A stretch of 43,170 bases of DNA from an uncultured Selenomonadaceae bacterium (GTDB lineage: Bacteria > Bacillota > Negativicutes > Selenomonadales > Selenomonadaceae). Below are positions 4,938-40,679 of this stretch, piece by piece (positions within the stretch are counted from its first letter, which is position 1; every line of letters begins with the position of its first letter). The notes under the pieces are model-generated. The model was given only the letters and a program-made list of their open reading frames with translations. It was not told the origin of the DNA and did not search any database. The DNA lies in the NCBI GenBank assembly GCA_905234045.1, contig CAJOGS010000009.1, positions 1 to 43,170 on the forward strand, given 5' to 3'. The position numbers and the translations under genes were made by a program.

Positions 4938-4988
4938 CACCTCCCGTGTAGTAGATAGTGGTTAGCGGTTAGAGAACTACCGACTACC
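4938..4988. repeat. Convergent TAG-array pair (short hairpin)
   Basis: Plus-strand TAG units (TAGTAGATAGTGGTTAG and on) face minus-strand units that start with the TAG stop codon of the restriction enzyme gene (TAGTCGG, TAGTTCTC). The two halves are complementary and can form a stem. No mobile element lies between them. Confidence 0.7.
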
Positions 4989-6258
4989 GATCTACCAAGC
5001 GAACAATCCAACTAATCCAATGCTTTATAGTTGACGCCCTGCGCGAATATGTGCTTTTACTTCCAACGTGATATAAATTTGAGTTTTCCATAATCTGAAC
5101 AATTTCATCTGTAGCAGGCATTACGCCGCGTTCAAAATATTTTTTCAGAATGTCGGAAAAAACTTTGTGCGATAAAATACATTCGCAGTAAGAAAGTTGC
5201 CGCTGCTTAAATTTTAAATTCAAAATCTTTTTGCCGCGTTCGGTAATGCAGTAATTGCCGGGACTTAATTTTTGAACCAACCCCAAATAAATCGCAGCAT
5301 TTGCATAATAATCTGTCTGCCGTTCGACAAATTTATATTCATCTGTAATTGAGTCGTCCGTCATTTCGTTTTTATTCAAAAGTTCGCAAAGATTTATCAC
5401 ACGTTCAAAACTGTCTGCTTGCGGAAAAGGTATCTCCGGCTCGGATTTTAATTCAGTCTTACGCAAAATATTTTGAATTTCTTCAAGATTTATTTCTGTG
5501 TCTTCAACAGAATAATTTTTCTGCTTAATGAGTTTCAGCGAATTATAATTTTGCGGATTCTCAAATTCATATTCGTAAAGTCGGTAAATTCCATTTGAAT
5601 AAACAAAAAATATTGTCTTAATCGGCTTGGTAATTTTTTCCCGCCACGTTCGATAAGGATAATACAACTGACGAATTAAAAAATCTTCGAAAATTTCGCG
5701 CTTAGCCTCGAAAAGCGATAAATATTTTACGCCTTCATACGCCGCGTCAATTTCAATCTGCGAATTTTGAACTTGTACATTATACGGCAAATTATTTTTA
5801 ACATCAGTAATGTTGAAATTAAAAATTCCTGAACTCATTCGACCGGCAACAGTTGCAGTAATATTTTCGTCGCTGACAAAATCAGCGATAATTCCGGCGG
5901 CAAAGGCAGTATTTAAAGCAACCGTTTCGCTGAAAACAGTTTCACTGTCCAGACTCTGAATGTGATTCGGCAAAGAAATTTTTACAATTTTTTCGTCAGT
6001 ATTTTCAAATTTATGATAAGAATCAAAATTTCCAATCAAATAATCGCCGCGCGTAATTGGCAAAATTGATAAATTATTGTTGCTAAAAATTTTTGGAAGA
6101 TTAACTTTATGATCAAATTTCACCATTAAACGCGGCTCTCTAAATTCTTTTATTTGCTCGGCGGAAATTTTAAAAATTTTGTCCTTTTCAACGCAATGCA
6201 AAATATCGTATTTCTGAAAAATTTTTTGCCACGCCGTTTCATTTTTACCTTCAGCCAT
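4984..6258 (-). CDS. Type II restriction endonuclease, PD-(D/E)XK fold
   Basis: A 424-residue protein encoded directly after a Dam-type methyltransferase; its ATG overlaps the methyltransferase stop by 8 bp, which argues for translational coupling of R to M. A PD-(D/E)XK core is visible: IEID ending in D171, then FEAK with E184 and K186, followed by a conserved helix FLIRQLYYPYRTW (193-205). The C-terminal 80 residues (GSKSTYSRRASTIKHWI near the end) look like a winged-helix DNA-binding module. I believe this matches the DUF6997/DUF7226-type restriction enzymes, but that name is from memory. The recognition site is presumably that of the partner enzyme. The stop TAG opens the array at 4938-4988. 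Confidence 0.8.
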   Translation of the reverse strand: MAEGKNETAWQKIFQKYDILHCVEKDKIFKISAEQIKEFREPRLMVKFDHKVNLPKIFSNNNLSILPITRGDYLIGNFDSYHKFENTDEKIVKISLPNHIQSLDSETVFSETVALNTAFAAGIIADFVSDENITATVAGRMSSGIFNFNITDVKNNLPYNVQVQNSQIEIDAAYEGVKYLSLFEAKREIFEDFLIRQLYYPYRTWREKITKPIKTIFFVYSNGIYRLYEYEFENPQNYNSLKLIKQKNYSVEDTEINLEEIQNILRKTELKSEPEIPFPQADSFERVINLCELLNKNEMTDDSITDEYKFVERQTDYYANAAIYLGLVQKLSPGNYCITERGKKILNLKFKQRQLSYCECILSHKVFSDILKKYFERGVMPATDEIVQIMENSNLYHVGSKSTYSRRASTIKHWISWIVRLVDR

Positions 6259-7893: not shown

Positions 7894-8127
7894 TTAGGTG
7901 CGGTTGAACAATACAATTTTTTTATTTTTTTGAACGTACATTCTTTTTTCCGAAGCAAAAAAAGTACTAAAGAGCATGCACGCAAGTACCAAAGAAAAAG
8001 TGCTTTTGGGAATCCGCAAAGTTGCTACAAGTAAATCCCTAGTCTCTAGTCCTTAGCCCTTAGCCCCTATACTGCCGCACTTTGCGGATTTTTGAAAAAT
8101 ATTTCTGAATTATTCAACACGCCCTAG
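7894..8127. mobile_element. MITE-like element M1
   Basis: The right end TATTCAACACGCCCTAG (8111-8127) is the family terminal repeat. The left end TTAGGTGCGGTTGAACAA is a degenerate inverted copy. Inside, AATCCGCAAAGT (about 8011) and ACTTTGCGGATT (about 8080) form inverted arms around a heptad TAG array (8034-8069). No coding capacity. Confidence 0.7.
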
Positions 8128-8159
8128 TTTAGTAGTAAGATAGTTGGATAGTGGAATAG

Positions 8160-8397
8160 TAAAAAAATTTTAGTTCGATGAAAGCGGTAAACTAGATGCG
8201 CGCAAGGACGCGCGCTCACATAGCCGCCGCGCGCAGGTTGCCGGAAGCGACCGCAGTATGCGCGGCTAGCGTTTTCTTGCAAAGGCGACGAGTAGGAGCG
8301 TTTGCTTACTTTCTTTTTCGCAATGCAAAAACAAAGTACTTTTAATATAAAAATTATTGAAATAAAAATTTACCGACAACCGCTAGTATATAAAACG
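8160..8397. repeat. MITE interior module without clear ends
   Basis: This part of the 7872-8418 gap holds modules also seen in other elements (TTCGATGAAA, TTGCAAAGGCGACGAGTAGG, AAAGTACTTTTAATAT). Between them is an unusually GC-rich stretch at about 8195-8275. I see no gene and no family terminal repeat on its right side, so it may be a truncated element. Confidence 0.5.
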
Positions 8398-8421
8398 CTA
8401 ACAACTAACAACTAACCACTA
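8398..8421 (-). repeat. Heptad TAG array starting at the gatA stop
   Basis: On the minus strand the gatA TAG stop is followed by TGGTTAG, TTGTTAG and TTGTTAG, a strict 7-base period. Successive TAGs therefore fall in all three reading frames. Confidence 0.8.
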
Positions 8422-9852
8422 ATCCCTATTCTGTTCAAAAGTGAACGCGGCGCGGATAATTGTTTCTTCGTCAAGCGGTTTTCCAATCAGTTGCAAACCA
8501 ATCGGCAAATTTTCTTTATTAAAACCGCACGGCACAGAAATTCCCGGCAGTCCCGCCAAATTTACCGGCACTGTACAAATATCTTGCAGGTACATTTTCA
8601 AGGGATCGTTAGCCATTTCGCCAATTTTAAACGCAACAGTCGGCGCGGTCGGCGTCAGTACAACGTCAACATTTTTGAAAGCGTCGGTAAAATCTTTCTG
8701 AATCAGCGTGCGAACTTTCAACGCCTTCAAATAATAAGCGTCATAATAACCTGCGCTAAGTGCGTAATTGCCAATCATAATGCGGCGTTTGACTTCTTCG
8801 CCAAATTTTTCTGTGCGGGTATTAGTCATCATTTCCACAACGTCAACGCCGTCAACTCTTGCGCCGTAACTTACGCCGTCATAGCGTTCAAGATTTGTAG
8901 CCGCCTCTGCCGGTGCAATTAAATAGTAAGTCGAAATTGCAAAGCCTGTGTGCGGAAGTGAAATTTCAACAATTTCTGCGCCGAGTTTCTCAAAAAGTTT
9001 CGTCGCAGATTTTACGGCGTCAGCAACTTCATTATCCATACCGTCAACAAAATATTCTTTCGGCAAGCCGATTTTCAAGCCTTTAACGTCGTTTACGAGA
9101 CTTTTTGTAAAATCAGGAACGGCGGCGGCGGTTGAAGTGGAATCCATTTCATCAAGCCCGCAAATTGCATTTAAAACCGTCGCACAGTCGGTAACGTCTT
9201 TTGTCAGAGGTCCAATTTGATCGAGTGAAGACGCAAAAGCAACTAAGCCGTAACGAGAAATGCGCCCGTAAGTCGGTTTAAATCCAACTACGCCGCAATA
9301 GCTGGCAGGTTGACGAATTGAACCGCCTGTATCACTGCCGAGCGTGAAAATTGCTTCTCCTGCCGCTACAGCCGCCGCACTGCCGCCGCTACTGCCGCCC
9401 GGTACTCTTTCCAAATTGTGCGGATTTTTTGTTGTATGATACGCCGAATTTTCGGTTGAGCCGCCCATTGCAAATTCGTCCATATTGACTTTGCCGAGCA
9501 TTACGGCATTTTGAGAATTTAATTTTGTCATAACCGTTGCATCATACGGCGGCACAAAATTTTCAAGAATTTTCGAGGCGCAAGTTGTTTTAACGCCCTT
9601 CGTGCAAATATTATCTTTAATCGCGCAGGGAATACCTTCAAGTGGTGCAATTTCTTCGCCGCGTGAAATTTTTTCGTCAACGCGCTTTGCAGTCTCCAAT
9701 GCTTGTGACTTTGTAATTTCCAAATACGCGCCGATTTCTTTTTCTTTTTCGTCGATACGTTCAAATAAATTTTGTGTAAGTTCGGTTGCGCTGATTTCTT
9801 TCGACTTTAAAAGGTCGTGCAATTCGTGCGCGGTTTTTTCGTACAATTTCAA
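8419..9852 (-). CDS. gatA: Glutamyl-tRNA(Gln)/aspartyl-tRNA(Asn) amidotransferase subunit A
   Basis: GatA is the amidase subunit of GatCAB, which converts Glu-tRNA(Gln) (or Asp-tRNA(Asn)) to the amidated form using glutamine. The amidase Ser-cisSer-Lys triad is present: K79 (CAIKDN), S154 (PGGSSGGS) and S178 (DTGGSIR), the same residue numbers as in Staphylococcus aureus GatA. The 477 residues are close to the usual 485. The start is TTG at 9852 with GGAGGAATAAA before it; no in-frame ATG is near. gatC lies upstream, but an acetolactate decarboxylase gene has come between. gatB is not in the window. The TAG stop opens the array at 8398-8421. Confidence 0.95.
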
Positions 9853-11130: not shown

Positions 11131-13122
11131 TTATGATGCCAACATTCTTTCACCGATACTGCCAATGCGAATTTCGCCGATATTAAAACTGGTCTGCCGA
11201 ATTGAATCGCGCAGTTTTGAAACGTAATCTCTAAAATCGTCGGCTGATTCACTATCAGAAAAATAAAAGCGCATATCCAGTTGATTTTCTTCGTAAACGC
11301 GGAAAATTAATTCAACCGCGCCGATATGGTCGGTCAAAACGCAAATTCTAAGCCACGTTTCCTTTTTATTTTCGCCGGTTTCGGGGTCTTTGGTACTCTC
11401 GTCGAAAATGCTCAAATAAGTCGGGTAATTCGTCGAATCCGCGCCCAAAAAAATTGGAACCATCATTTGAAAAGAACGCTGATTTTGAACAGTGGTATTG
11501 TCACTGCTTGAAAAATTTCTCATGATATTTGCGAAGTCTGAAACTTCCCGCCCTGCGCGTTTAAAAGCGCGTGGCGTCATTTTTGAAGATAAATTCGCCA
11601 TATCGCAAAGTTGCATAAACGCCCAAAGGCGCGGCAAATCCGGCAATTTATGTTGAACTGCGGCTTGCTGTACGACTGACGGCACATTTTGCTGACACAG
11701 GCGCAATAAATTTTGCAAATGGCGCGCCTCTGCCTCCGGCATAACTTTCTGCGTGTTGTTTACGAAATTTTGTAAAAGCGTGGTTTCGTGTTGCGAAAGT
11801 GATTGCGAATTTTTCATTAAAAAATGTGCAAGGCTTTTCATTGTGTCCATAGTCTGCTGAGTATTTTGCAACGGTTGTTTCAGCAAAAGATTTTTGGCGT
11901 CCTGCATTTGGTTTTTGAGTTCCTGCTGTTTCGATACGAAATTTTGATCGAGTTGAGGAATTTCTCCGCGCAGAAATGACGATTGAGTTTGTGAAGTTGC
12001 TTGCGGTTGATTTAAATTTTGCGGCTGAGAATTTTGTTGAGACTGATTTAAATTTTGCGGCTGTGAATTTTGTTGAGACTGATTTAAATTTTGCGGCTGA
12101 GAATTTTGTTGAGACTGATTTAAATTTTGCGGCTGAGAATTTTGTTGCTGATTTAAATTTTGTGGCTGTGAATTTTGTTGAGACTGATTTAAATTTTGCG
12201 GCTGTGAATTTTGTTGCTGATTTAAATTTTGCGGCTGTGAATTTTGTTGCTGATTTTGATTTTGAGTTTGACTTTCGGATTGCAAATTTTGTGGCATTTG
12301 ATTTTGAGCCGCCGCCTGTTGTTTAGGCAAATTTGCATAAGGGTCATCAAGTTGGCGGTACATAGAATTTAAAAGCCGCTGTGTCGGCGTAGGCGTAGGG
12401 CGTTGCTGAGTTTGCTGTTGCATTTGCTGTTGATTCTGTTCCTGATTGGCGGTAGCAGTTTCAGCAGTGGGACGCGGCATAAAAAATTTTACCAACTGAT
12501 TTAAAAATTGCATACCTTCAGATTGTTGCGGCTGATTTGCCGAAACTGTTGAAGGTTGTGCAAGCTGTGAAAGAATTTCATACAATTCTTGCGGCATTTG
12601 TTCCGGGTTTTTGTGGTCGATTAATTCAAACGCCGATTTTGACATTAAAACCGGTTCAAAAATATTGCCGCCGTTTTCCGTGACGAGTAAATTTTTAAAC
12701 TGCGTCAAAAGTATTTTAGTTTCGTCGCTGAGTTCCATTGAAAAACCTTTGTCGGCAAGTGCGCCGATTTGCGCCAACATTCTTGCCAGAATCATTAATT
12801 GATCGTTGGAAAATCTTTGACTTTCAATGGTACTGCCGATACCTTGCGAAAGTGTGGCATCGATTGAAAATGATTGTTGCAAAATATTTCTTACAACTTG
12901 CCCAATATCTTGCGGCAATTTTTCCAAGCCAAATTTTTCTTGCGAAGAGATTTTTGAAAGTGTACCGGCTAAATCTGAAATGGCAGTTTTTAAAGCTACG
13001 GTTGTCTGCGGTCTAAAACCGCCGTCAGTAACGTCGCCGCGCCTGTGTAGTCCTTCAGTTTCGCCGGTCGGTCGTTGTGGAGCTACGGACGGTACGCCTA
13101 TCGCTCCGGCGTTTATTGGCAT
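11131..13122 (-). CDS. Q/N-repeat protein, YlqG/FliK-like
   Basis: A 663-residue protein of unknown function. Residues about 50-200 are helical. Residues 210-390 are very rich in Gln, Asn and Pro and contain seven near-perfect 11- or 12-residue repeats around NSQPQNLNQ (about 291-370). The C-terminal 110 residues (LRICVLTDHIGAVELIF, then MRFYFSDSES) look like a compact beta-rich domain similar to the C-terminal part of flagellar hook-length proteins. It follows rnhB, as the FliK-like ylqG does in Bacillus subtilis; that synteny is my main reason for the name. ATG at 13122 follows AAGGAG. No flagellar gene is in the window. It ends in TAA. Confidence 0.55.
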   Translation of the reverse strand: MPINAGAIGVPSVAPQRPTGETEGLHRRGDVTDGGFRPQTTVALKTAISDLAGTLSKISSQEKFGLEKLPQDIGQVVRNILQQSFSIDATLSQGIGSTIESQRFSNDQLMILARMLAQIGALADKGFSMELSDETKILLTQFKNLLVTENGGNIFEPVLMSKSAFELIDHKNPEQMPQELYEILSQLAQPSTVSANQPQQSEGMQFLNQLVKFFMPRPTAETATANQEQNQQQMQQQTQQRPTPTPTQRLLNSMYRQLDDPYANLPKQQAAAQNQMPQNLQSESQTQNQNQQQNSQPQNLNQQQNSQPQNLNQSQQNSQPQNLNQQQNSQPQNLNQSQQNSQPQNLNQSQQNSQPQNLNQSQQNSQPQNLNQPQATSQTQSSFLRGEIPQLDQNFVSKQQELKNQMQDAKNLLLKQPLQNTQQTMDTMKSLAHFLMKNSQSLSQHETTLLQNFVNNTQKVMPEAEARHLQNLLRLCQQNVPSVVQQAAVQHKLPDLPRLWAFMQLCDMANLSSKMTPRAFKRAGREVSDFANIMRNFSSSDNTTVQNQRSFQMMVPIFLGADSTNYPTYLSIFDESTKDPETGENKKETWLRICVLTDHIGAVELIFRVYEENQLDMRFYFSDSESADDFRDYVSKLRDSIRQTSFNIGEIRIGSIGERMLAS
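12011..12253 (-). repeat. Seven in-frame coding repeats of 36 or 33 bp
   Basis: Units beginning TTTAAATTTT on the plus strand start at 12011, 12047, 12083, 12119, 12152, 12188 and 12221, so the spacing is 36, 36, 36, 33, 36 and 33 bp. All lengths are multiples of three and keep the frame, so copy number could vary without breaking the protein. Confidence 0.93.
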
Positions 13123-13190: not shown

Positions 13191-13412
13191 GTTAAGACAA
13201 ATTGAAAAATCTGCAAAATATTTTTCAAAAAATCCGCAAAGTGCGGACGGTTTGTAGTGTGTTAGTGTTGTAGTGTTATAGTTTTAACTACCGCACTATC
13301 CCACTATCACACTATCTAACTACTAAACGGCTTCGGAAAAAAGAAAGTACATTTAATAAAATTTAAGTAACTAAATTTAATCAGTAAAATTTTATTTATT
13401 CAACACGCCCCA
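13191..13412. mobile_element. MITE-like element M2 with an internal TAG hairpin
   Basis: The right end TTCAACACGCCCCAG (13398-13412) abuts the rnhB stop codon. The left end TTAAGACAAATTGAAAAATC at about 13191 is a weak match. It contains the AATCCGCAAAGT motif seen in M1 and a TAG hairpin at 13254-13325. There is no gene between 13123 and 13413. Confidence 0.6.
13254..13325. repeat. TAG-array hairpin
   Basis: The left half has plus-strand units such as TAGTGTGT, TAGTGTTG and TAGTGTTA. The right half has the complementary form (ACTATCCC, ACTATCAC). Together they make a long imperfect stem with a small apex near 13284. Confidence 0.8.
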
Positions 13413-16227: not shown

Positions 16228-16277
16228 TTAGGTTTTTTGGAAATTTTTTTATTGGATAGTCAAATGTCTGTGGTGTG

Positions 16278-16489
16278 TTAGGGCGTGTTGGAAAAGTCAA
16301 AAATAGTGTAACTTGAAACGGCGGTCACGGACGACCGCCGCCGCAACTAAAGAGCACGCTTGCTACGCAACCGCGCATGATTCAGGACTGAATCTCTGGC
16401 GGTTAAAAGCCCTTTCTTTTGTTACTTTTCTTTGGGCTAGCAAAGAAAGTAATTTTAATAAAAAAATTAAATTATTCAACATCCCCTAG
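16278..16489. mobile_element. MITE-like element M3
   Basis: 212 bp with good terminal repeats: TTAGGGCGTGTTGGAAAAG on the left and TTATTCAACATCCCCTAG on the right. The interior has a GC-rich inverted repeat (CGGCGGTC / GACCGCCG near 16320-16345) and the shared module CTTTGGGCTAGCAAAG. It fills most of the 306-bp ligA-pcrA gap. Confidence 0.85.
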
Positions 16490-16497
16490 TTACTGAC

Positions 16498-16533
16498 CAT
16501 CTGGCAATCTGACAATCTGACAATCTAATCATC
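16498..16533 (-). repeat. Octad array at the pcrA stop; one arm of a 17-bp inverted repeat
   Basis: On the minus strand the pcrA stop lies in GATGATTAGATTGTCAG and is followed by further ATTGTCAG-type units of 8 bases. The 17 bases at 16517-16533 are repeated exactly in inverted orientation at 18826-18842, just upstream of pcrA. Confidence 0.8.
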
Positions 16534-18820: not shown

Positions 18821-18860
18821 GATTAGATGATTAGATTGTCAGTGTTTCAGATTGTTAGCA
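18821..18860 (+). repeat. Octad TAG array upstream of pcrA
   Basis: Plus-strand TAGATGAT, TAGATTGT and related units point away from the pcrA start. Bases 18826-18842 match the array at the pcrA stop in inverted orientation. Confidence 0.75.
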
Positions 18861-19045
18861 ATACTATTTTGAAATTTTTTTTGTAATAATATTAAATGTA
18901 CTTTTTCTTTGCGCGTCCAAAGAGCAAACGCACCGCCCGCGCCGCACGTCCTGTGCGCCATCTTAGTTTTTCGTTCTCGTTTAGAAAAATTTAATTCGCT
19001 AATCATCAGTAGTACAACATTCAGTCAATTATTCAACACACTCTA
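18855..19045. mobile_element. MITE-like element M4
   Basis: The right end ATTATTCAACACACTCTAG (about 19027-19045) is clear. The left end is not certain. The interior carries the shared modules GTACTTTTTCTTTG and CACGTCCTGTGCGCCATC. Its final CTAG is also the first CTAG of M5. Confidence 0.55.
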
Positions 19046-19336
19046 GGGCGTGTTGAATAAGTCCAAAATCCACAATTTTTTTTTAATCCGCAAAGTGCGG
19101 ACGGAAATTACTTGCTAAAGGCGTGCGGTAAAGTTGGTGCGACCAAAAGGAGCTTACCTAATAAGGGCGTACGGCATTCTAGCAGCTTTGCGGATTCATT
19201 AAAAGCAGTTTTTCTTTGGTACTTGCGTGCGTGCTCTTTAGTACTTTTTTTGCTTCGGAAAAAAGAAAGTACATTTAAAAAAATTTCAGAAACAAAAATT
19301 CATCAGTCAAATTTGATTTTTTTCAACACGCCATAG
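19042..19336. mobile_element. MITE-like element M5
   Basis: 295 bp from CTAGGGCGTGTTGAATAAG to TTTTTTTCAACACGCCATAG. It contains AATCCGCAAAGTGCGGAC and a facing AGCTTTGCGGATT, as in M1, plus TTTTTTCCGAAGC-type modules. M4 and M5 share a CTAG, so one seems to have entered at the end of the other. Together they fill most of 18805-19412. Confidence 0.85.
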
Positions 19337-19378
19337 AAAAAAATTCTTAGCAAAAAAAATCTCAGCAACTAAGAATTT
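19334..19378 (-). terminator. Terminator of the hybrid kinase gene
   Basis: A perfect 10-bp inverted repeat, AAATTCTTAG (19341-19350) and CTAAGAATTT (19369-19378), is followed on the minus strand by a run of seven T. Confidence 0.7.
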
Positions 19379-19415
19379 ATCAACACACACTAAACTATAC
19401 CGTACTACCCGACTA
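19379..19415 (-). repeat. TAG array starting at the kinase stop
   Basis: The TAG stop is followed on the minus strand by TCGGGTAG, then TACGGTATAG and TTTAG. The spacing is less regular than in other arrays. Confidence 0.6.
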
Positions 19416-21711: not shown

Positions 21712-21757
21712 CCTTATTTAGATGGCTAGATGGTTAGATGGTTATATAGTTAGGTTT
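21712..21757 (+). repeat. Octad TAG array upstream of the kinase gene
   Basis: Plus-strand units TAGATGGC, TAGATGGT, TAGATGGT and shorter TAG steps lead straight into the left end of M6. Confidence 0.75.
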
Positions 21758-21934
21758 TAGGGGCTGTTGAATAAGTCTGTTATCAAATTTTTTCTTATTA
21801 AACTTACTTTTCTTTGTCTTGTCAAAGAGCAAACGCTCCTACTCGTCGCCTTTGCAAGAAAGATGCTTTTTGCGGTGCTGTTTTTTCGTTCTTAGTCAGC
21901 GTTTTTTAGTTCGCTAATCATCAGCTGTTTTTCT
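21757..21934. mobile_element. MITE-like element M6 (right end unclear)
   Basis: The left end TTAGGGGCTGTTGAATAAGT is clear. The interior has TCTTTGTCTTGTCAAAGAGC, CTCGTCGCCTTTGCAAG and GCGGTGCTGTTTTTTCG, all shared with M8, M10 and M12 in opposite orientation. I cannot see a good right terminal repeat. Confidence 0.6.
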
Positions 21935-21963
21935 AAAACCTAAAACCTAGTACCTAGAACCTA
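21935..21963 (-). repeat. Heptad TAG array starting at the PilP/GspC-like stop
   Basis: On the minus strand the TAG stop is followed by GTTCTAG, GTACTAG, GTTTTAG and GTTTTAG: five TAGs at an exact 7-base period. Confidence 0.85.
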
Positions 21964-22554
21964 ATCACTGCCTAAATCAATGTTCAAAATTTCGCCGTCT
22001 TCAAGAATTACAGAATCAGTAGCAATATCGACAATTTTTTTGCCGTTGATATTGTCGCCAATTCCCAAAATCAAATTTTCTTCGCCGGATTTTTTATCGT
22101 TATCAATAATTTTTTGAAATATCGCAGATTTATTTGCACCGACAATGGCAATGCCGCGCAAAATAAATTTAGTTTTAACCTGCGCGACGGGCGGCGAAAT
22201 AATTACAGACGGCAATTCAGGCGGCTTTTCAATTTTTTCTTTTGGCGGAACTTTGAAAGGATCGCCGACAAATAAATCATCAGAATTTGCGCCGACAACA
22301 ATTTTTATATTTTCATTGACGTTGGAATTTTCAGCGCGTTTTATCGTGACAATATTTTTATTTGTGTCGGCAGTTTCGACAACTTCAGGCGGCGGCGTTT
22401 CAGTCAAAATAATTTCTTCGCCGCCGCTGTCGTCCGTCAAAAATAAACCTGCCGCAAATATAAAACAAATGCACAAGCCCGCAAATCTGATTTTATTTTC
22501 TCGAATTTCTTTGAGGTCTTTCTGCCAAATATTTTTTAGTTCATCGTCGAACAT
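21961..22554 (-). CDS. Single-pass membrane protein with a PilP/GspC-like C-terminal domain
   Basis: A 197-residue protein with a short charged N-terminus, one membrane helix at about 24-40, a Pro/Glu-rich linker (52-120), and a C-terminal domain (about 127-195). The domain runs FILRGIAIVGANKSAIF to GDNINGKKIVDI to VILEDGEILNI. This pattern resembles the homology region of GspC and PilP, inner-membrane parts of type II secretion or type IV pilus machines. That is a pattern match only; no other secretion gene is nearby. Its ATG overlaps the pyrG stop as TAATG, so the two are translationally coupled. The TAG stop opens an array. Confidence 0.6.
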   Translation of the reverse strand: MFDDELKNIWQKDLKEIRENKIRFAGLCICFIFAAGLFLTDDSGGEEIILTETPPPEVVETADTNKNIVTIKRAENSNVNENIKIVVGANSDDLFVGDPFKVPPKEKIEKPPELPSVIISPPVAQVKTKFILRGIAIVGANKSAIFQKIIDNDKKSGEENLILGIGDNINGKKIVDIATDSVILEDGEILNIDLGSD

Positions 22555-24159
22555 TATTTATTTTCCAGAAGTTGCAACGCGGCATTAACAAATGCCTTGA
22601 AAAGCGGGTGCGGGTGATTGGGACGCGATTTTAATTCAGGGTGAAATTGGCAACCGACAAACCACGGGTGTAAATTTTTATTCAATTCGACAATTTCAAC
22701 CAAACTGTCATCAGGCAAAACGCCCGCAATTACCATACCTTTTTCAGTGAAAATTTCACGGTATTTATTATTGAACTCGAAACGATGGCGATGGCGTTCC
22801 TGAATTTCAAAAATTTCATTGTCGCCGAAATAAGCCGCCGCAGTAAAAGTATTTGGCGTAACCTTGCAAGGATACGCGCCGAGCCGCATTGTACCGCCTT
22901 TATTTATTACGTTTAATTGAGAATCCATTAACGCAATAACGGGATTTTCAGTTTCAGGATTAAATTCAGTTGAATTTGAATCAGCAAAATTGCAAACATT
23001 GCGGGCAAATTCAATAACCGCGCATTGCATACCGAGACACAATCCCAAAAATGGAATTTTATTTTCACGGGCGTATTTAATCGCTTTAATCTTGCCTTCA
23101 ACGCCTCTATCGCCAAAGCCGCCCGGTACAAGAATACCTTTGCAACCGTTGAAAATTTCGTCCAAATCTGTTTCAGGATTTTCAATAGCTTCTGCGTTGA
23201 CAAATTTAACGCTGACGGCGGCAGAGTTGTCAATTCCCGCGTGATTAAGTGCCTCAACTACCGAAATATAAGCGTCAGGCAATTCAACATATTTGCCGAC
23301 GACCGCAATTTTAATTTTGTATTCGGGATTTTTAATTTTGTAAACCATACGTTCCCAATCTTCCATTTTTGCGGGAGATTGCGGCAGGTTCAATTTTTCC
23401 AAAACAATTTTATCAAGCCCTTCATTTTGCATAATCAAAGGCACTTCATAAATTGTGGACGCCGTGCGATTTTCAATTACTGCATCTTCGTCAACGTCGC
23501 AGAAAAGCGCAATTTTTTTCTTCATTGCGCGGGAAATAGTTTGCTCCGTGCGGCAGACCAAAATATCCGGCTGAATCCCGATTGAACGCAATTCTTTAAC
23601 GCTGTGTTGCGTAGGTTTAGTTTTGAGTTCGCCCGCCGCGCCAATGTACGGCAATAACGTAACGTGAATATAAAGCGCGTCATTTTTGCCGACTTCTTTT
23701 TTGACTTGGCGAATTGCTTCCAAAAACGGCAGTGATTCAATATCACCGACAGTGCCGCCGACTTCAGTTATAACAACGTCCGCTTGATCTGATTCGGCAA
23801 CCACGTAAACTCTGGCTTTAATTTCGTTTGTAACGTGCGGAATAACTTGCACGGTTGAGCCGAGATACTGACCAATAAATTTTGCCCGTCGTCGTATTTG
23901 AATTTTTCGTCAGATTGATATCAATAAATCTTTCGTAGTGTCCCAAGTCTAAATCCGTTTCCGCGCCGTCTTCAGTAACAAAAACTTCGCCATGTTGGTA
24001 AGGACTCATTGTGCCGGGATCTATGTTTATATATGGATCAAACTTTTGAATTGTAACCTTAAGACCGCGACTTTTTAAGAGCCTGCCAAGTGCCGCCGCA
24101 GTTATGCCTTTGCCGAGCGATGAAACTACTCCGCCCGTCACGAAAATATATTTAGACAT
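22554..24159 (-). pseudogene. pyrG: CTP synthase, frameshifted by an apparent 26-bp deletion
   Basis: PyrG makes CTP from UTP, ATP and glutamine. The first 104 residues are normal ([10 protein letters not shown] at 9-18, then [13 protein letters not shown] to TTGKIYWSV). That frame then reads into nonsense and stops at 23818. The rest is intact in another frame from [18 protein letters not shown], with the glutaminase Cys (FLGLCLGMQ) and the His-Glu pair (CQFHPE). The family has about eight residues (a KERRG-type segment) at the junction. The junction word GGTCAGTA (23866-23873) can encode both the upstream W-S-V and the downstream G-Q-Y, so loss of 26 bases between two copies of that 8-mer would produce this. 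ATG at 24159 follows AAGGGAG. Real loss would require CTP salvage. Confidence 0.9.
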
Positions 24160-24174
24160 TGAAAAACTCCCTTC

Positions 24175-24268
24175 GGTAGTTTAGTAGTGCGATAGTTTGA
24201 TAGTGCGATAGTAAATCACTATACTACTACCACACTATAACACTATAACACTATACCACTACAAAACT
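24175..24268. repeat. TAG-array hairpin between pyrG and rpoE, no inserted element
   Basis: The plus-strand arm has GATAGTTT and GATAGTGC units of 8 bases. The minus-strand arm starts with the TAG stop of rpoE and continues TAGTTTTG, TAGTGGTA, TAGTGTTA, TAGTGTTA, TAGTGTGG. The arms pair around AAATC. It looks like the unoccupied form of the sites that hold MITEs elsewhere. Confidence 0.88.
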
Positions 24269-24572
24269 ACTCCATCATTTCATCAGTTCTATCTTGTTTA
24301 GTACGAGTTGCCCCGCGCTTTTTGGTTTCCGGCGGATCCCATTCAGCCAAGCCCCATTTTTTCTTTTCGGGATTGTATTGAAAGCGGCTGTCCATGTTAA
24401 TCATTGTATAAACTTCTGAAATCGCCGCCGCCTCGTTTTGCGTAGATTTATTTTTCAGCTTGAAAATTTCTAAGATTAAATCTTTGTAATAAATGTGGTT
24501 ATCTTTTCCGGCGTCATTTAAAATTTTATACGCCAAATCAACCTCCGACATATCTTCAAATTTTTTCGTCAT
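24267..24572 (-). CDS. rpoE: DNA-directed RNA polymerase subunit delta
   Basis: A 101-residue protein with the HARE-HTH domain of the Bacillota delta subunit (SEVDLAYKILNDAGKDNHIYY at the start, then SRFQYNPEKKKWGLAEW). Delta displaces RNA from polymerase and speeds recycling. The typical long acidic tail is almost missing: after the domain there are only about 25 mixed-charge residues. The ATG at 24572 was chosen because GGGAGG lies 7 bases before it; a TTG 15 bases further up overlaps that site. It follows the L,D-transpeptidase gene by 18 bp, and pyrG comes next, the usual rpoE-pyrG neighbourhood. Confidence 0.88.
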   Translation of the reverse strand: MTKKFEDMSEVDLAYKILNDAGKDNHIYYKDLILEIFKLKNKSTQNEAAAISEVYTMINMDSRFQYNPEKKKWGLAEWDPPETKKRGATRTKQDRTDEMME

Positions 24573-24590
24573 TATTTTACCTCCCAAAAA

Positions 24591-25312: not shown

Positions 25313-25345
25313 GTAGATCTACAGTAGATAGTGATTAGTTACTAG
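25313..25345 (+). repeat. TAG array left of M7
   Basis: Plus-strand TAGATAGTGATTAGTTAC leads directly into the CTAG that opens M7. Confidence 0.65.
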
Positions 25346-25488
25346 GGCGTGTAGAATAAATCAATTTTTACTGATGAAATTTTTTTAAATGTACGTTCTT
25401 TTTTCCGAAGCAAAAGTAGTTGGATAGTGGTGTAGCTATCAGCTATTGGCTATCGAACTACTTTTGCGGATTTTTCAACACGCCCTAG
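25342..25488. mobile_element. MITE-like element M7, shortest complete copy
   Basis: 147 bp, from CTAGGGCGTGTAGAATAAA (25342) to TTTTTCAACACGCCCTAG (ends 25488). The ends are near-perfect inverted repeats with CTAG at both edges. The interior has only TTTTTTCCGAAGCAAAAG, an array-like segment and TTTTGCGGATTTTTC, so it may be close to the minimal mobile form. Confidence 0.92.
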
Positions 25489-25529
25489 TCCCTAGTCTCT
25501 AGTCCCTACCCACTAACCACTACCCACTA
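25485..25529 (-). repeat. Heptad TAG array starting at the argS stop
   Basis: On the minus strand the argS TAG stop is followed by seven-base units TGGGTAG, TGGTTAG, TGGGTAG, GGACTAG, AGACTAG and GGACTAG. The last CTAG is the edge of M7. Confidence 0.9.
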
Positions 25530-27307: not shown

Positions 27308-27359
27308 TCAAAATAGTTGGATAGTGCGATAGTTGGATAGTGTGATAGCAATTTACTAG
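27308..27359 (+). repeat. Octad TAG array left of M8
   Basis: Plus-strand units TAGTTGGA, TAGTGCGA, TAGTTGGA, TAGTGTGA have an exact 8-base period and lead toward the CTAG of M8. Confidence 0.85.
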
Positions 27360-27634
27360 GGCGTGTTGAAAAATTGATTGAAAATGCTAACGAATTATTT
27401 TTTGTTCGATGAGAACGAAGAACTAAGAGGCCGCACAGGACGTGCGGCGCGGGCGGTGCGTTTTTTTCGTGGACGAAAAAACAGCACCGCAAAAACGCCC
27501 TTTCTTGTTGGTACTTTTTCAGCTAAAGAGCACGCTTGCTACGCAACCGCGCAGGGCAAGCAAAGAAAAAGTACGTTAAATATATAAAAACTTTCAAGAA
27601 AAAATTTGATAACAGAATTTTTCAAAACACACTA
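27356..27634. mobile_element. MITE-like element M8
   Basis: Starts CTAGGGCGTGTTGAAAAATT; the right end TTTTTCAAAACACACTAAC is degenerate. The interior carries GGACGTGCGGCGCGGGCGG, AAAAAACAGCACCGCAAAAA and CAAGCAAAGAAAAAGTACG modules. The short open frames in it are by-products of the repeat. It accounts for most of the 513-bp gap 27186-27698. Confidence 0.8.
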
Positions 27635-29474: not shown

Positions 29475-29783
29475 CTAGGTGCTGTTGAATAATAAATTTA
29501 ACTACTGCTGATGAATTAGCAAACTAAATTTTGCTGACTAAGAACGAAAAACTAAGATGCCGCGCAGGACGCGCGGCTCGGGCGGTGCGTTTTTTTCGAG
29601 GACGAAAAAACAGCACCGCAAAAAGCGTCTTTCTTGCAAATGCGAGGAGTACGAGCATTTGCTGTACTTGCAAAGGCGACGAATAGGAGCGTTTGCTCTT
29701 TGACAAGACAAAGAAAAAGTACGTTCAATATATAAAAAATTTCAAAAAAATTTTTGATAACAGATTTTTTCAACACGCCCTAG
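29475..29783. mobile_element. MITE-like element M10
   Basis: 309 bp, from CTAGGTGCTGTTGAATAATA to TTTTTTCAACACGCCCTAG. Contains GGACGCGCGGCTCGGGCGG, AAAAAACAGCACCGCAAAAA, a TTGCAAATGC / GCATTTGC inverted repeat around GAGGAGTACGA, and TTTGACAAGACAAAG. A stray right-end-like sequence (ACCAACATGCCCTAA) follows at 29848-29862. With M9 it fills the 773-bp gap 29172-29944, which has no gene. Confidence 0.88.
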
Positions 29784-39495: not shown

Positions 39496-40299
39496 ATGAA
39501 AAATTTTAATGTTGGATTTATTGGCGGCGGCGCACTTGCCGAATCCGTCATCAAAGGTATTTCAAAAAATCTTTTTGCGGCTGAAAAAATTTTTGTTGCC
39601 GAAAAAATTCCTGCGCGTAGAGATTATTTAATTGAAAAATATTCAATCAACGTGGCGGCAGATTTTGCAAATTTCGCAGATAAAATTAATTTGCTGATAG
39701 TAGCAGTCAAGCCGAAAGATTTGGACGCGGCACTCTCAGAAGTTCAAAAAAATATCACGGCGACAACTTTGGTAATGTCAGTGGTTGCCGGTTGCAAACT
39801 TTCAAAACTTGAAAGTTATTTGCCGAATCAAAAAATTATTCGCATTATGCCGAATGTTGCAGTTTTGGTTGAAGAAGGAATGATGGCGTACGCGGCGGGC
39901 AAAAATGCAACTGCCGAAGATATGGAAATTGCGAAAAAATTTTGGTCGGCGATTGGGCGCACTGTTGAAGTTGACGAAAAATTAATGGACGCTGTAACAG
40001 GTTTAAGCGGTTCCGGCCCGGCATATGCATTTTTGATGATTGACGCACTTGCAGACGGCGGAGTTGCGGCGGGTCTTCCCAGAAATTACGCTATTGAACT
40101 TGCGGCGCAAACTTTACTCGGCGCGGCTAAAATGGTACTTGAAACAGGCGAACATCCCGACGTACTGCGCGACAGAGTTACAAGCCCTGCCGGTACCACT
40201 ATTGAAGGTATTCGTATTTTGGAAAAAAATAATTTCCGCAGTGCATTAATTGAGGCGGTTATTTCTGCCACAGAAAAATCTAAAGATTTAGGGAAGTAG
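39496..40299 (+). CDS. proC: Pyrroline-5-carboxylate reductase
   Basis: The last enzyme of proline synthesis. The Rossmann motif GFIGGGALAESVIKG is at residues 7-21. The signature MPNVAVLVEEGM and the C-terminal dimer region LSGSGPAYAFLMIDALADGG and SPAGTTIEGI are present. The 267 residues are standard. ATG at 39496; the nearest GGAG is 13 bases upstream, longer than usual. The TAG stop opens an octad array, and no terminator is clear. Confidence 0.96.
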   Translation: MKNFNVGFIGGGALAESVIKGISKNLFAAEKIFVAEKIPARRDYLIEKYSINVAADFANFADKINLLIVAVKPKDLDAALSEVQKNITATTLVMSVVAGCKLSKLESYLPNQKIIRIMPNVAVLVEEGMMAYAAGKNATAEDMEIAKKFWSAIGRTVEVDEKLMDAVTGLSGSGPAYAFLMIDALADGGVAAGLPRNYAIELAAQTLLGAAKMVLETGEHPDVLRDRVTSPAGTTIEGIRILEKNNFRSALIEAVISATEKSKDLGK

Positions 40300-40342
40300 T
40301 GGTGTAGTGTGGTAGTTGGGTAGTGTGATAGTTGGGTAGTTT
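40297..40342 (+). repeat. Octad TAG array starting at the proC stop
   Basis: The proC stop TAG is followed by eight-base units TGGTGTAG, TGTGGTAG, TTGGGTAG, TGTGATAG and TTGGGTAG. This shows the same rule on the plus strand: the array follows the gene's own stop in its own direction. Confidence 0.9.
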
Positions 40343-40444: not shown

Positions 40445-40679
40445 CTAGGTCGTGTTGAGAAATTAATTGAAAATGCTGATTCACGAAAAAAATTTTGTTC
40501 GATGAAAACGAAAAAACAGCACCGCAAAAAGCGTCTTTCTTGCAAATGCGAGGAGTACGAGCATTTGCTGTACTTGCAAATTCGACGAATAGGAGGATTT
40601 GCTCTCTGACAAGACAAAGAAAAAGTACTTTAAATAAGAAAAGAAGTTTTAAAAACAGATTTATTCAAAAGCACCTAAC
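40445..40679. mobile_element. MITE-like element M12 upstream of folD
   Basis: The left end CTAGGTCGTGTTGAGAAATT is clear; the right end TTATTCAAAAGCACCTAAC is degenerate. The interior has AATGCTGATTCACG, AAAAAACAGCACCGCAAAAA, the TTGCAAATGC / GCATTTGC hairpin and CTGACAAGACAAAGAAAAAG. It ends about 37 bp before the folD start and gives folD a spurious open extension. Confidence 0.8.

Follow-up and report, generated by a model that had tools for sequence, protein, structure and literature searches.

The window analysed here is the whole stretch of 43,170 nucleotides from an uncultured Selenomonadaceae bacterium, and its type site is the gap between rpoE and pyrG at 24175-24268. Two arrays of short TAG-containing units face each other in this gap, five units on the plus strand and seven on the minus strand, with the rpoE stop codon as the first of the seven, just as an earlier note on this DNA described the site. 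The two arms are separated by a 7-base centre, and about 20 bp with the ribosome-binding site of pyrG are spared. A GC-rich hairpin followed by a U tract, which would define an intrinsic terminator, is not found, as no T run follows the pair within 24160-24270. The pyrG gene itself (22554-24159, minus strand) is broken into two overlapping frames of 113 and 432 aa; since the other matching members of the genus mostly carry a single open frame, at least about 540 aa long, the split in the window is a frameshift or an assembly error. The arrays and related features of the window are as follows.

4949-4994, no single strand: facing pair at the stop codon of the gene with the DUF6997 domain
8125-8159, plus strand: TAG array of five units, sharing its gap with the gatA array
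8398-8428, minus strand: TAG array of five units at the gatA stop, one unit of which extends into the gene
13255-13281, plus strand: TAG array within a MITE-like element (about 54 genome matches)
13288-13322, minus strand: facing partner of 13255-13281 in the same MITE-like element
16493-16527, minus strand: array at the pcrA stop, TAG and then CAG units
19390-19415, minus strand: short irregular array at the hybrid kinase stop (TAGTCGGGTAGTACGGTATAG)
21719-21737, plus strand: facing partner of 21933-21963, with a MITE-like element between the two
21933-21963, minus strand: TAG array of five units at the stop of a 197-aa gene
24177-24211, plus strand: TAG array of five units facing the rpoE array, ending about 20 bp short of the start of pyrG (pyrG on the minus strand)
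24219-24269, minus strand: TAG array of seven units, unit 1 being the rpoE stop (chain listing of the window)
24267-24587, minus strand: rpoE, RNA polymerase delta subunit (NCBIfam TIGR04567), whose TAG stop is unit 1
25417-25460, no single strand: facing pair joined at TAGCTA in a MITE-like element with GCAAAAG/CTTTTGC flanks
25485-25529, minus strand: 7-bp TAG array of seven units, from the argS stop onward
27314-27348, plus strand: TAG array of five units upstream of argS, adjoining a MITE-like element
40289-40339, plus strand: 8-bp TAG array of seven units at the proC stop, one unit of which lies inside the gene
8160-8400, 13323-13410, 16250-16490, 18850-19400, 21755-21930, 25340-25485 and 27350-27630: the MITE-like family in the window

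The earlier note named eight genes whose TAG stop opens such an array, and the chain listing of the window reveals a TAG stop followed by 7/8-bp units at all eight. Two of the arrays are weaker than claimed: that of the hybrid kinase contains one 9-bp step, and that of pcrA continues from its TAG in CAG units (TAGATTGTCAGATTGTCAG). The gene names hold for gatA, pcrA, rpoE (as the RNA polymerase delta subunit), argS, proC and the hybrid histidine kinase, all by NCBIfam matches, but not for the two genes called a restriction enzyme and PilP/GspC-like, for neither of which a confirming domain match is obtained; the product of 4984-6258, the supposed restriction enzyme, matches DUF6997, DUF6996 and DUF7226 domains only, and the PilP/GspC-like product has no match in Pfam or NCBIfam. 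The occurrence of arrays on both strands is likewise confirmed. The window also holds repeats of other kinds, namely a 36/69-bp tandem repeat at 12008-12264 within a 663-aa ORF (11131-13122, no Pfam or NCBIfam match) and a near-identical 34-bp tandem pair (CTTGCAAAGGCGACGAATACGAGCATTTGCTGTA) at two places, 29633-29697 and 40539-40603.

The genome scan for 7/8-bp TAG chains proposed in the earlier note was performed on stretches of the window's own genome (G000) amounting to 767 kb of 2.66 Mb, with the chain count made on 416 kb and genes taken from plain ORF calls with a minimum length of 80-100 codons; the genomes used are mostly fragmented, incomplete assemblies. A strong excess tied to TAG stops is observed: chains of at least four TAG at 7/8-bp spacing number 106 in the 416 kb and 0 in the shuffled control, and TAG chains at periods of 5, 6, 9 or 10 give no comparable signal there. 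As the core of such chains, TAG/CTA (with the overlapping AGT/ACT) far exceed all other trinucleotides in the same 416 kb. A period search that makes no assumption about TAG also returns 7, 8 and the multiple 14 in intergenic DNA, with nothing comparable at neighbouring periods, and TAG, CTA or CAG is present in about 94% of the 7/8-period segments of the genome. Chance or base composition is rejected as the cause by the empty shuffled control and by this TAG-free search. Each unit is 7 or 8 bp long and combines a constant TAG core, in some cases CAG, with a G/T-rich spacer that varies.

Placement and polarity are equally regular. Only 1 of 138 arrays lies within an ORF, and facing pairs outnumber diverging pairs by 29:1 in G000, which bears out the facing polarity claimed earlier, and by 16:0, 7:0 and 12:1 in three further genomes of the genus. 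Closely packed genes lack arrays, as also claimed: an array is found at 1 of 164 genes where the gap is shorter than 15 bp, compared with 74 of 325 where it is at least 80 bp. The array ends at a median of 21 bp before the next start codon, which leaves the ribosome-binding site free. As separate observations, arrays occur in the short gaps of a same-strand, operon-like run of the relative G034 (L150, 8481-11519), in which intra-operon junctions are not avoided, and ribosome-binding sites often lie within a small hairpin with a GACTGAAAGGA-like loop and varying complementary stems such as AAAAGC...GCTTTT and AATTGC...GCAATT (for example, in gaps of L018 and L150).

The association with stop codons strongly favours TAG. 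In the 767 kb, an array is present at the gene end for 73 of 136 TAG stops and for 14 of 468 TAA or TGA stops (odds ratio 38, p about 1e-41). When three genomes are taken together, the unit closest to a TAG stop coincides with that stop in 96 of 109 arrays, in which the stop serves as unit 1 (65 arrays), unit 2 (25) or unit 3 (6); some arrays thus run on into the coding region and specify the final residues of the protein. The anchoring claimed in the earlier note is therefore real. One reading of it is that the arrays provide translation stops in all frames, because neither 7 nor 8 is divisible by 3 and TAG would fall in every frame to block read-through; the start of arrays at the stop and the restriction to periods 7 and 8, with none at 6 or 9, agree with this. 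However, TAA or TGA would serve equally and the core is TAG or CAG, CAG is no stop at all, and neither the antisense array nor the arrays of divergent gaps could serve this purpose, which makes this reading extremely unlikely.

The C-termini of array genes mostly match those of array-less orthologues (argS ends in SAPTSM before its stop in three species). The stop is TAG in the genome with the array and TAA, TGA or TAG in the orthologue without it; these orthologues carry 11 TAA, 6 TAG and 2 TGA in our own sum over the tables, and the comparison tally for TAG genes without arrays is 8 TAA, 2 TGA and 1 TAG. Conversion of stops by arrays is a possible alternative that was set aside, as ordinary stop turnover with seeding at TAG explains the tallies about equally well; the counts are compatible with arrays having been seeded where a gene already ended in TAG.

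The 7-bp TAG pattern is found in 57 of 66 species of the genus; its counts span 0 to about 2,500 and those of the controls lie near zero, so the array pattern is not an artefact of one assembly. The unit words are species-specific (TAGGAAT, TAGCTGT, TAGGGAC, TAGTAAG, TAGGGAA and others), and TAG is constant in them. The pattern is nearly absent from the rest of the family, and a few distant genera of the class have it. Beyond G000, the octamer form (TAGTNNNATAGTNNNATAGT) is found in G025 and G034 only among 36 same-genus relatives searched, and it recurs in Anaerolineae and other Chloroflexota in a scan of named genomes. In the Chloroflexota loci, which were selected for carrying arrays, 12 pairs face and 0 diverge, and 17 arrays are in register with TAG stops; an extra sample from two such genomes, in which arrays are sparse, yields a facing-to-diverging ratio of 3:0 and three TAG-anchored arrays. 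The octamer pattern of viral contigs, with no facing and two diverging pairs, is a different thing, and the long pure octamer repeats of Maribacter and Helicobacter, which are single-strand tracts with high control counts and lack the facing anatomy, are ordinary simple repeats. In two genomes from another family of the class (G089 and G097; L216 and L217), CTAGTCA arrays occur in a conserved element adjoining a GCGCTGTGAAAAAAT terminator and are possibly an unrelated repeat.

A comparison of the rpoE-pyrG gap across relatives, made on cleanly parsed loci only, reveals that its content changes from species to species. G000 carries 8-bp TAG units; in G025, a TAA stop is followed by TAGGGAA units that face TAGTGGG units; G013 shows a different TAG family; G078 has CAGTGGT units after TGA; and several other relatives have 0-4 bp and are array-free. 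Other orthologous gaps likewise exhibit different unit families in sister species or no array. Arrays nevertheless recur at orthologous gaps somewhat above chance (G025, 5/7 vs 5/29, p=0.01; G034, 3/15 vs 0/28, p=0.04), a persistence that could be explained either by function or by permissive gaps.

A protein that reads spaced TAG or UAG sites in nucleic acid, with selection holding TAG and the spacers drifting, would account for a TAG/CAG core with free spacers across many unit families and for the different families that sister species carry at one gap; additionally, a repeat-binding protein was proposed by MacGregor for TAACTGA arrays (PMC4679880). This explanation is quite unlikely in our view, because TAG is equally invariant in arrays on transposon-like copies, co-directional gaps put both orientations into one transcript, a single genus spans counts of 0 to about 2,500, and no candidate protein was found.

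Gap class and RNA folding bear on a role in the transcript. Arrays occupy 92 of 369 co-directional, 15 of 58 convergent and 15 of 58 divergent gaps in G000 (25, 26 and 26%), and this equal use of the three classes speaks against a function linked to the 3' ends of mRNA; few arrays are found in the divergent gaps of G025 and G079, for which the samples are smaller. The idea that arrays specifically mark stop codons or 3' ends is thus not upheld, divergent and convergent occupancy being the same, and the functional reading is supported in part only. In the L021 gap, G000 and G025 both carry arrays, of different families, that follow the stop codon and precede a conserved canonical terminator, which indicates that the arrays are not the terminator, and in G062 (L213:16889) an array lies inside a terminator loop.

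The hairpin that the earlier note expected from each facing pair is physically plausible, with a predicted RNA fold of -38.2 kcal/mol (z -5.2) at the window site and mean z values of -4.5 over 50 pairs in G000, -6.2 in G034 and -3.9 in G025, but no co-adaptation of the facing arms is seen. Complementarity of facing spacers in G000 is 0.45 vs 0.53 by chance, slightly below expectation, and it does not exceed chance in G000, G034 or G025; in G079 it does (z +3.0). Arms exchanged between loci fold equally well in G000 and G025 and lose stability in G034, where the cost probably comes from mixing 7-mer and 8-mer families. Compensatory or G-U pairing in the sense transcript was sought and not found.

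Selected stem-loops at mRNA ends or between cistrons, stabilising or processing transcripts in the manner of REP/BIME sequences, are a possible but unlikely explanation of these data. The fold energies, the stem that begins at the stop codon, the persistence at orthologous gaps and the better folding of G034 arms with their own partners speak for them, and these points are opposed by the equally occupied divergent gaps of G000, the missing spacer complementarity in three genomes, the presence of arrays in MITE-like elements, and the sister species with only 0-4 bp at the rpoE-pyrG junction.

The MITE-like elements provide a view of how arrays change. The family has YTAGGGCGTGTTGAATAA ends, a length of about 140-320 bp and some 52 paired ends in the 767 kb; a TAG array lies inside 17 of the 52 elements, and several elements lie between two facing arrays. 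One element, with about 54 matches genome-wide, holds a facing array at one place, and about thirty copies keep its outermost units (TAGTGTGG TAGTTCGA in the left arm, TAGTTGGA in the right) and diverge toward the array centre in unit family, number and sequence. Among the 24 complete copies, unit identity falls from the outside inward as 0.62, 0.35, 0.25 and 0.17 in the left arm and from 0.41 to 0.07-0.15 in the right arm, with 0.09-0.12 at the centre. TAG is retained throughout, although the spacers are replaced. The copies lie in unrelated contexts, so selection for TAG at each locus seems an unlikely cause, and a TAG-dependent process would be the better fit. We take this central turnover that respects TAG as the strongest clue to the process, with the qualification that it comes mainly from one element family in one short-read MAG. 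Copy-and-paste of whole arrays is rejected as the sole mode: 7 pairs share at least 36 nt vs 1.25 simulated, and they are mostly copies of the one MITE-like element. Seeding at pre-existing palindromes is rejected as well, flank stems of at least 6 bp being present in just 2 of 25 non-stop arrays.

The same elements raise the alternative that the arrays are footprints of transposons with TA or YTAR targets, each insertion and excision leaving TAG plus 4-5 bp. The MITE-like ends lie at YTA followed directly by GGGCGTGTTGAA, TAG could consist of the target TA and the G of the element, and 29 of 252 end matches (loosely defined, chance hits included) abut units vs 33 of 714 random intergenic points. 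Such an origin is highly unlikely, as the spacers do not resemble the element ends, arrays exist without elements and also in Chloroflexota, and the periods of 7/8 and the facing polarity are left unexplained.

The position, polarity, TAG-stop register, genus-wide spread with species-specific units and centre-focused turnover observed here are read by us, with about even confidence, as those of a DNA-level repeat that is seeded at TAG and turns over at its centre, stop codons being tolerated seeds. Arrays would start from TAG trinucleotides, and units would be added or exchanged toward the centre at the DNA level, by slippage or by break and repair, with TAG microhomology possibly helping. A TAG stop may be a good seed because units added behind it leave the protein intact. 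Selection would then merely confine arrays between the stop and the ribosome-binding site, and the RNA hairpin would be a by-product, which may affect the mRNA without maintaining the array. The equal use of gap classes, the arrays in MITE-like elements, in a terminator loop and before a conserved terminator, the unchanged C-termini at stop-anchored arrays, the facing polarity in four genomes, the inward loss of unit identity, the missing spacer complementarity in G000, G034 and G025, and the orthologous gaps that differ or are empty favour this DNA-level reading. Against it, plain slippage predicts neither an invariant TAG nor strict facing polarity, and the enzyme or break involved is putative; the above-chance persistence, which could mean function, the complementarity in G079 and the better folding of locus-matched arms in G034 also tell against it.

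An origin from a telomerase-like reverse transcriptase of the DRT10 type, or from a REP-associated tyrosine transposase (RAYT), would suit the G/T-rich strands of both arms, which run centreward like fused telomere ends; DRT10 makes tandem-repeat DNA, according to the accessible part of one report (PMC12632851), and REPs carry GTAG (PMC3733652). This origin has next to no probability. RVT_1 is found in 21 of 66 genomes and is missing from several array-rich ones, with no match in G062, G002, G072 and G015 within MAG completeness, and Y1_Tnp occurs in 7 of the 66 and is unrelated to array counts; since neither domain tracks the arrays, a reverse transcriptase or RAYT was dropped as the array maker. 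Loss of SbcCD was also dismissed as a permissive factor, SbcD being present in 63 of 66 genomes. A bolder form of the DNA-level reading, that facing arrays gain or exchange 7-8-bp units at their centres through a TAG-recognising DNA process common to distant phyla, with stops as natural seeds, appears unlikely to us; if true, it would define a new class of self-propagating repeat without an element-encoded enzyme.

To our knowledge, heptamer repeats are widespread in bacteria and have no accepted origin or role. Across 66 species of the genus, counts of the 7-bp pattern run from 0 to some 2,500, and the units at a given gap are particular to the species; in addition, one array is carried with differing centres by dozens of paralogous transposon-like copies. 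This makes the mode of growth directly testable.

The likeness to heptanucleotide repeats noted earlier is borne out: the cyanobacterial STRR are 7-bp intergenic tandem repeats, and GGGGA(C/T)T arrays are described in Nostoc (PMC4692102), although the accessible text of that report gives few facing pairs for Nostoc and mentions no stop-codon register. The closest counterparts in the same text are the GGGAATC arrays of Xanthomonas, with 70-75 facing pairs per genome, located near or overlapping the stop codon, mostly at the same gene pairs in two species with strong variation in length and sequence, and with no function found (PMC4692102). They share with the present arrays the 7-bp intergenic tandem unit and a repeat strand that reads away from the genes to give facing pairs. 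As far as that text goes, they differ in having neither a TAG core nor a reported stop-codon register, in being rarer between divergent ORFs (in G000, 15/58 divergent vs 92/369 co-directional gaps are occupied), in showing no association with mobile elements, whereas the present arrays also lie inside a MITE-like family, and in lacking 8-bp units, which are equally unlike the Nostoc heptamers (PMC4692102). The Xanthomonas and Nostoc arrays prefer four units and have G-quadruplex potential in the same account (PMC4692102); a G4 motif is present in 0 of 200 arrays here, which are thus not assigned to the quadruplex-forming family.

The TAACTGA arrays of Beggiatoaceae, Cyanobacteria and Bacteroidetes are a second counterpart: the reverse complement of this 7-bp unit, TCAGTTA, contains the CAG form of the present core, the arrays adjoin the start codon in the corresponding polarity, and 14 sets overlap the end of the upstream ORF (PMC4679880). 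They differ in being one fixed heptamer, in 2-6 copies in Beggiatoaceae, and in forming a single inverted repeat (PMC4679880). Stop anchoring is therefore not unprecedented, though the earlier note knew of no such case, since Xanthomonas arrays overlap stops with the same polarity in the accessible text (PMC4692102) and some Beggiatoaceae TAACTGA arrays extend over upstream stops (PMC4679880). REP/BIME sequences are also short, dispersed, intergenic, RNA-folding palindromes with a GTAG/TAG motif (PMC3733652), but they are fixed palindromes of 20-40 bp thought to be mobilised by RAYT and not arrays, and the present arrays have no RAYT correlation. The CRISPR definition of long direct repeats, unique spacers and cas genes is inapplicable to a unit of 7-8 bp.

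On the published descriptions accessible here, the present arrays belong with the Xanthomonas and TAACTGA kind of heptamer array, with other repeat words. As far as this literature shows, the new features are the register between TAG core and stop, the mixed 7/8 period, the equal use of all gap classes in G000, the presence of arrays in MITE-like elements and the turnover focused on the centre. The TAG-stop register, together with the octamer anatomy in Chloroflexota, points to a common rule behind the separately described repeats of Xanthomonas, Nostoc and Beggiatoaceae.
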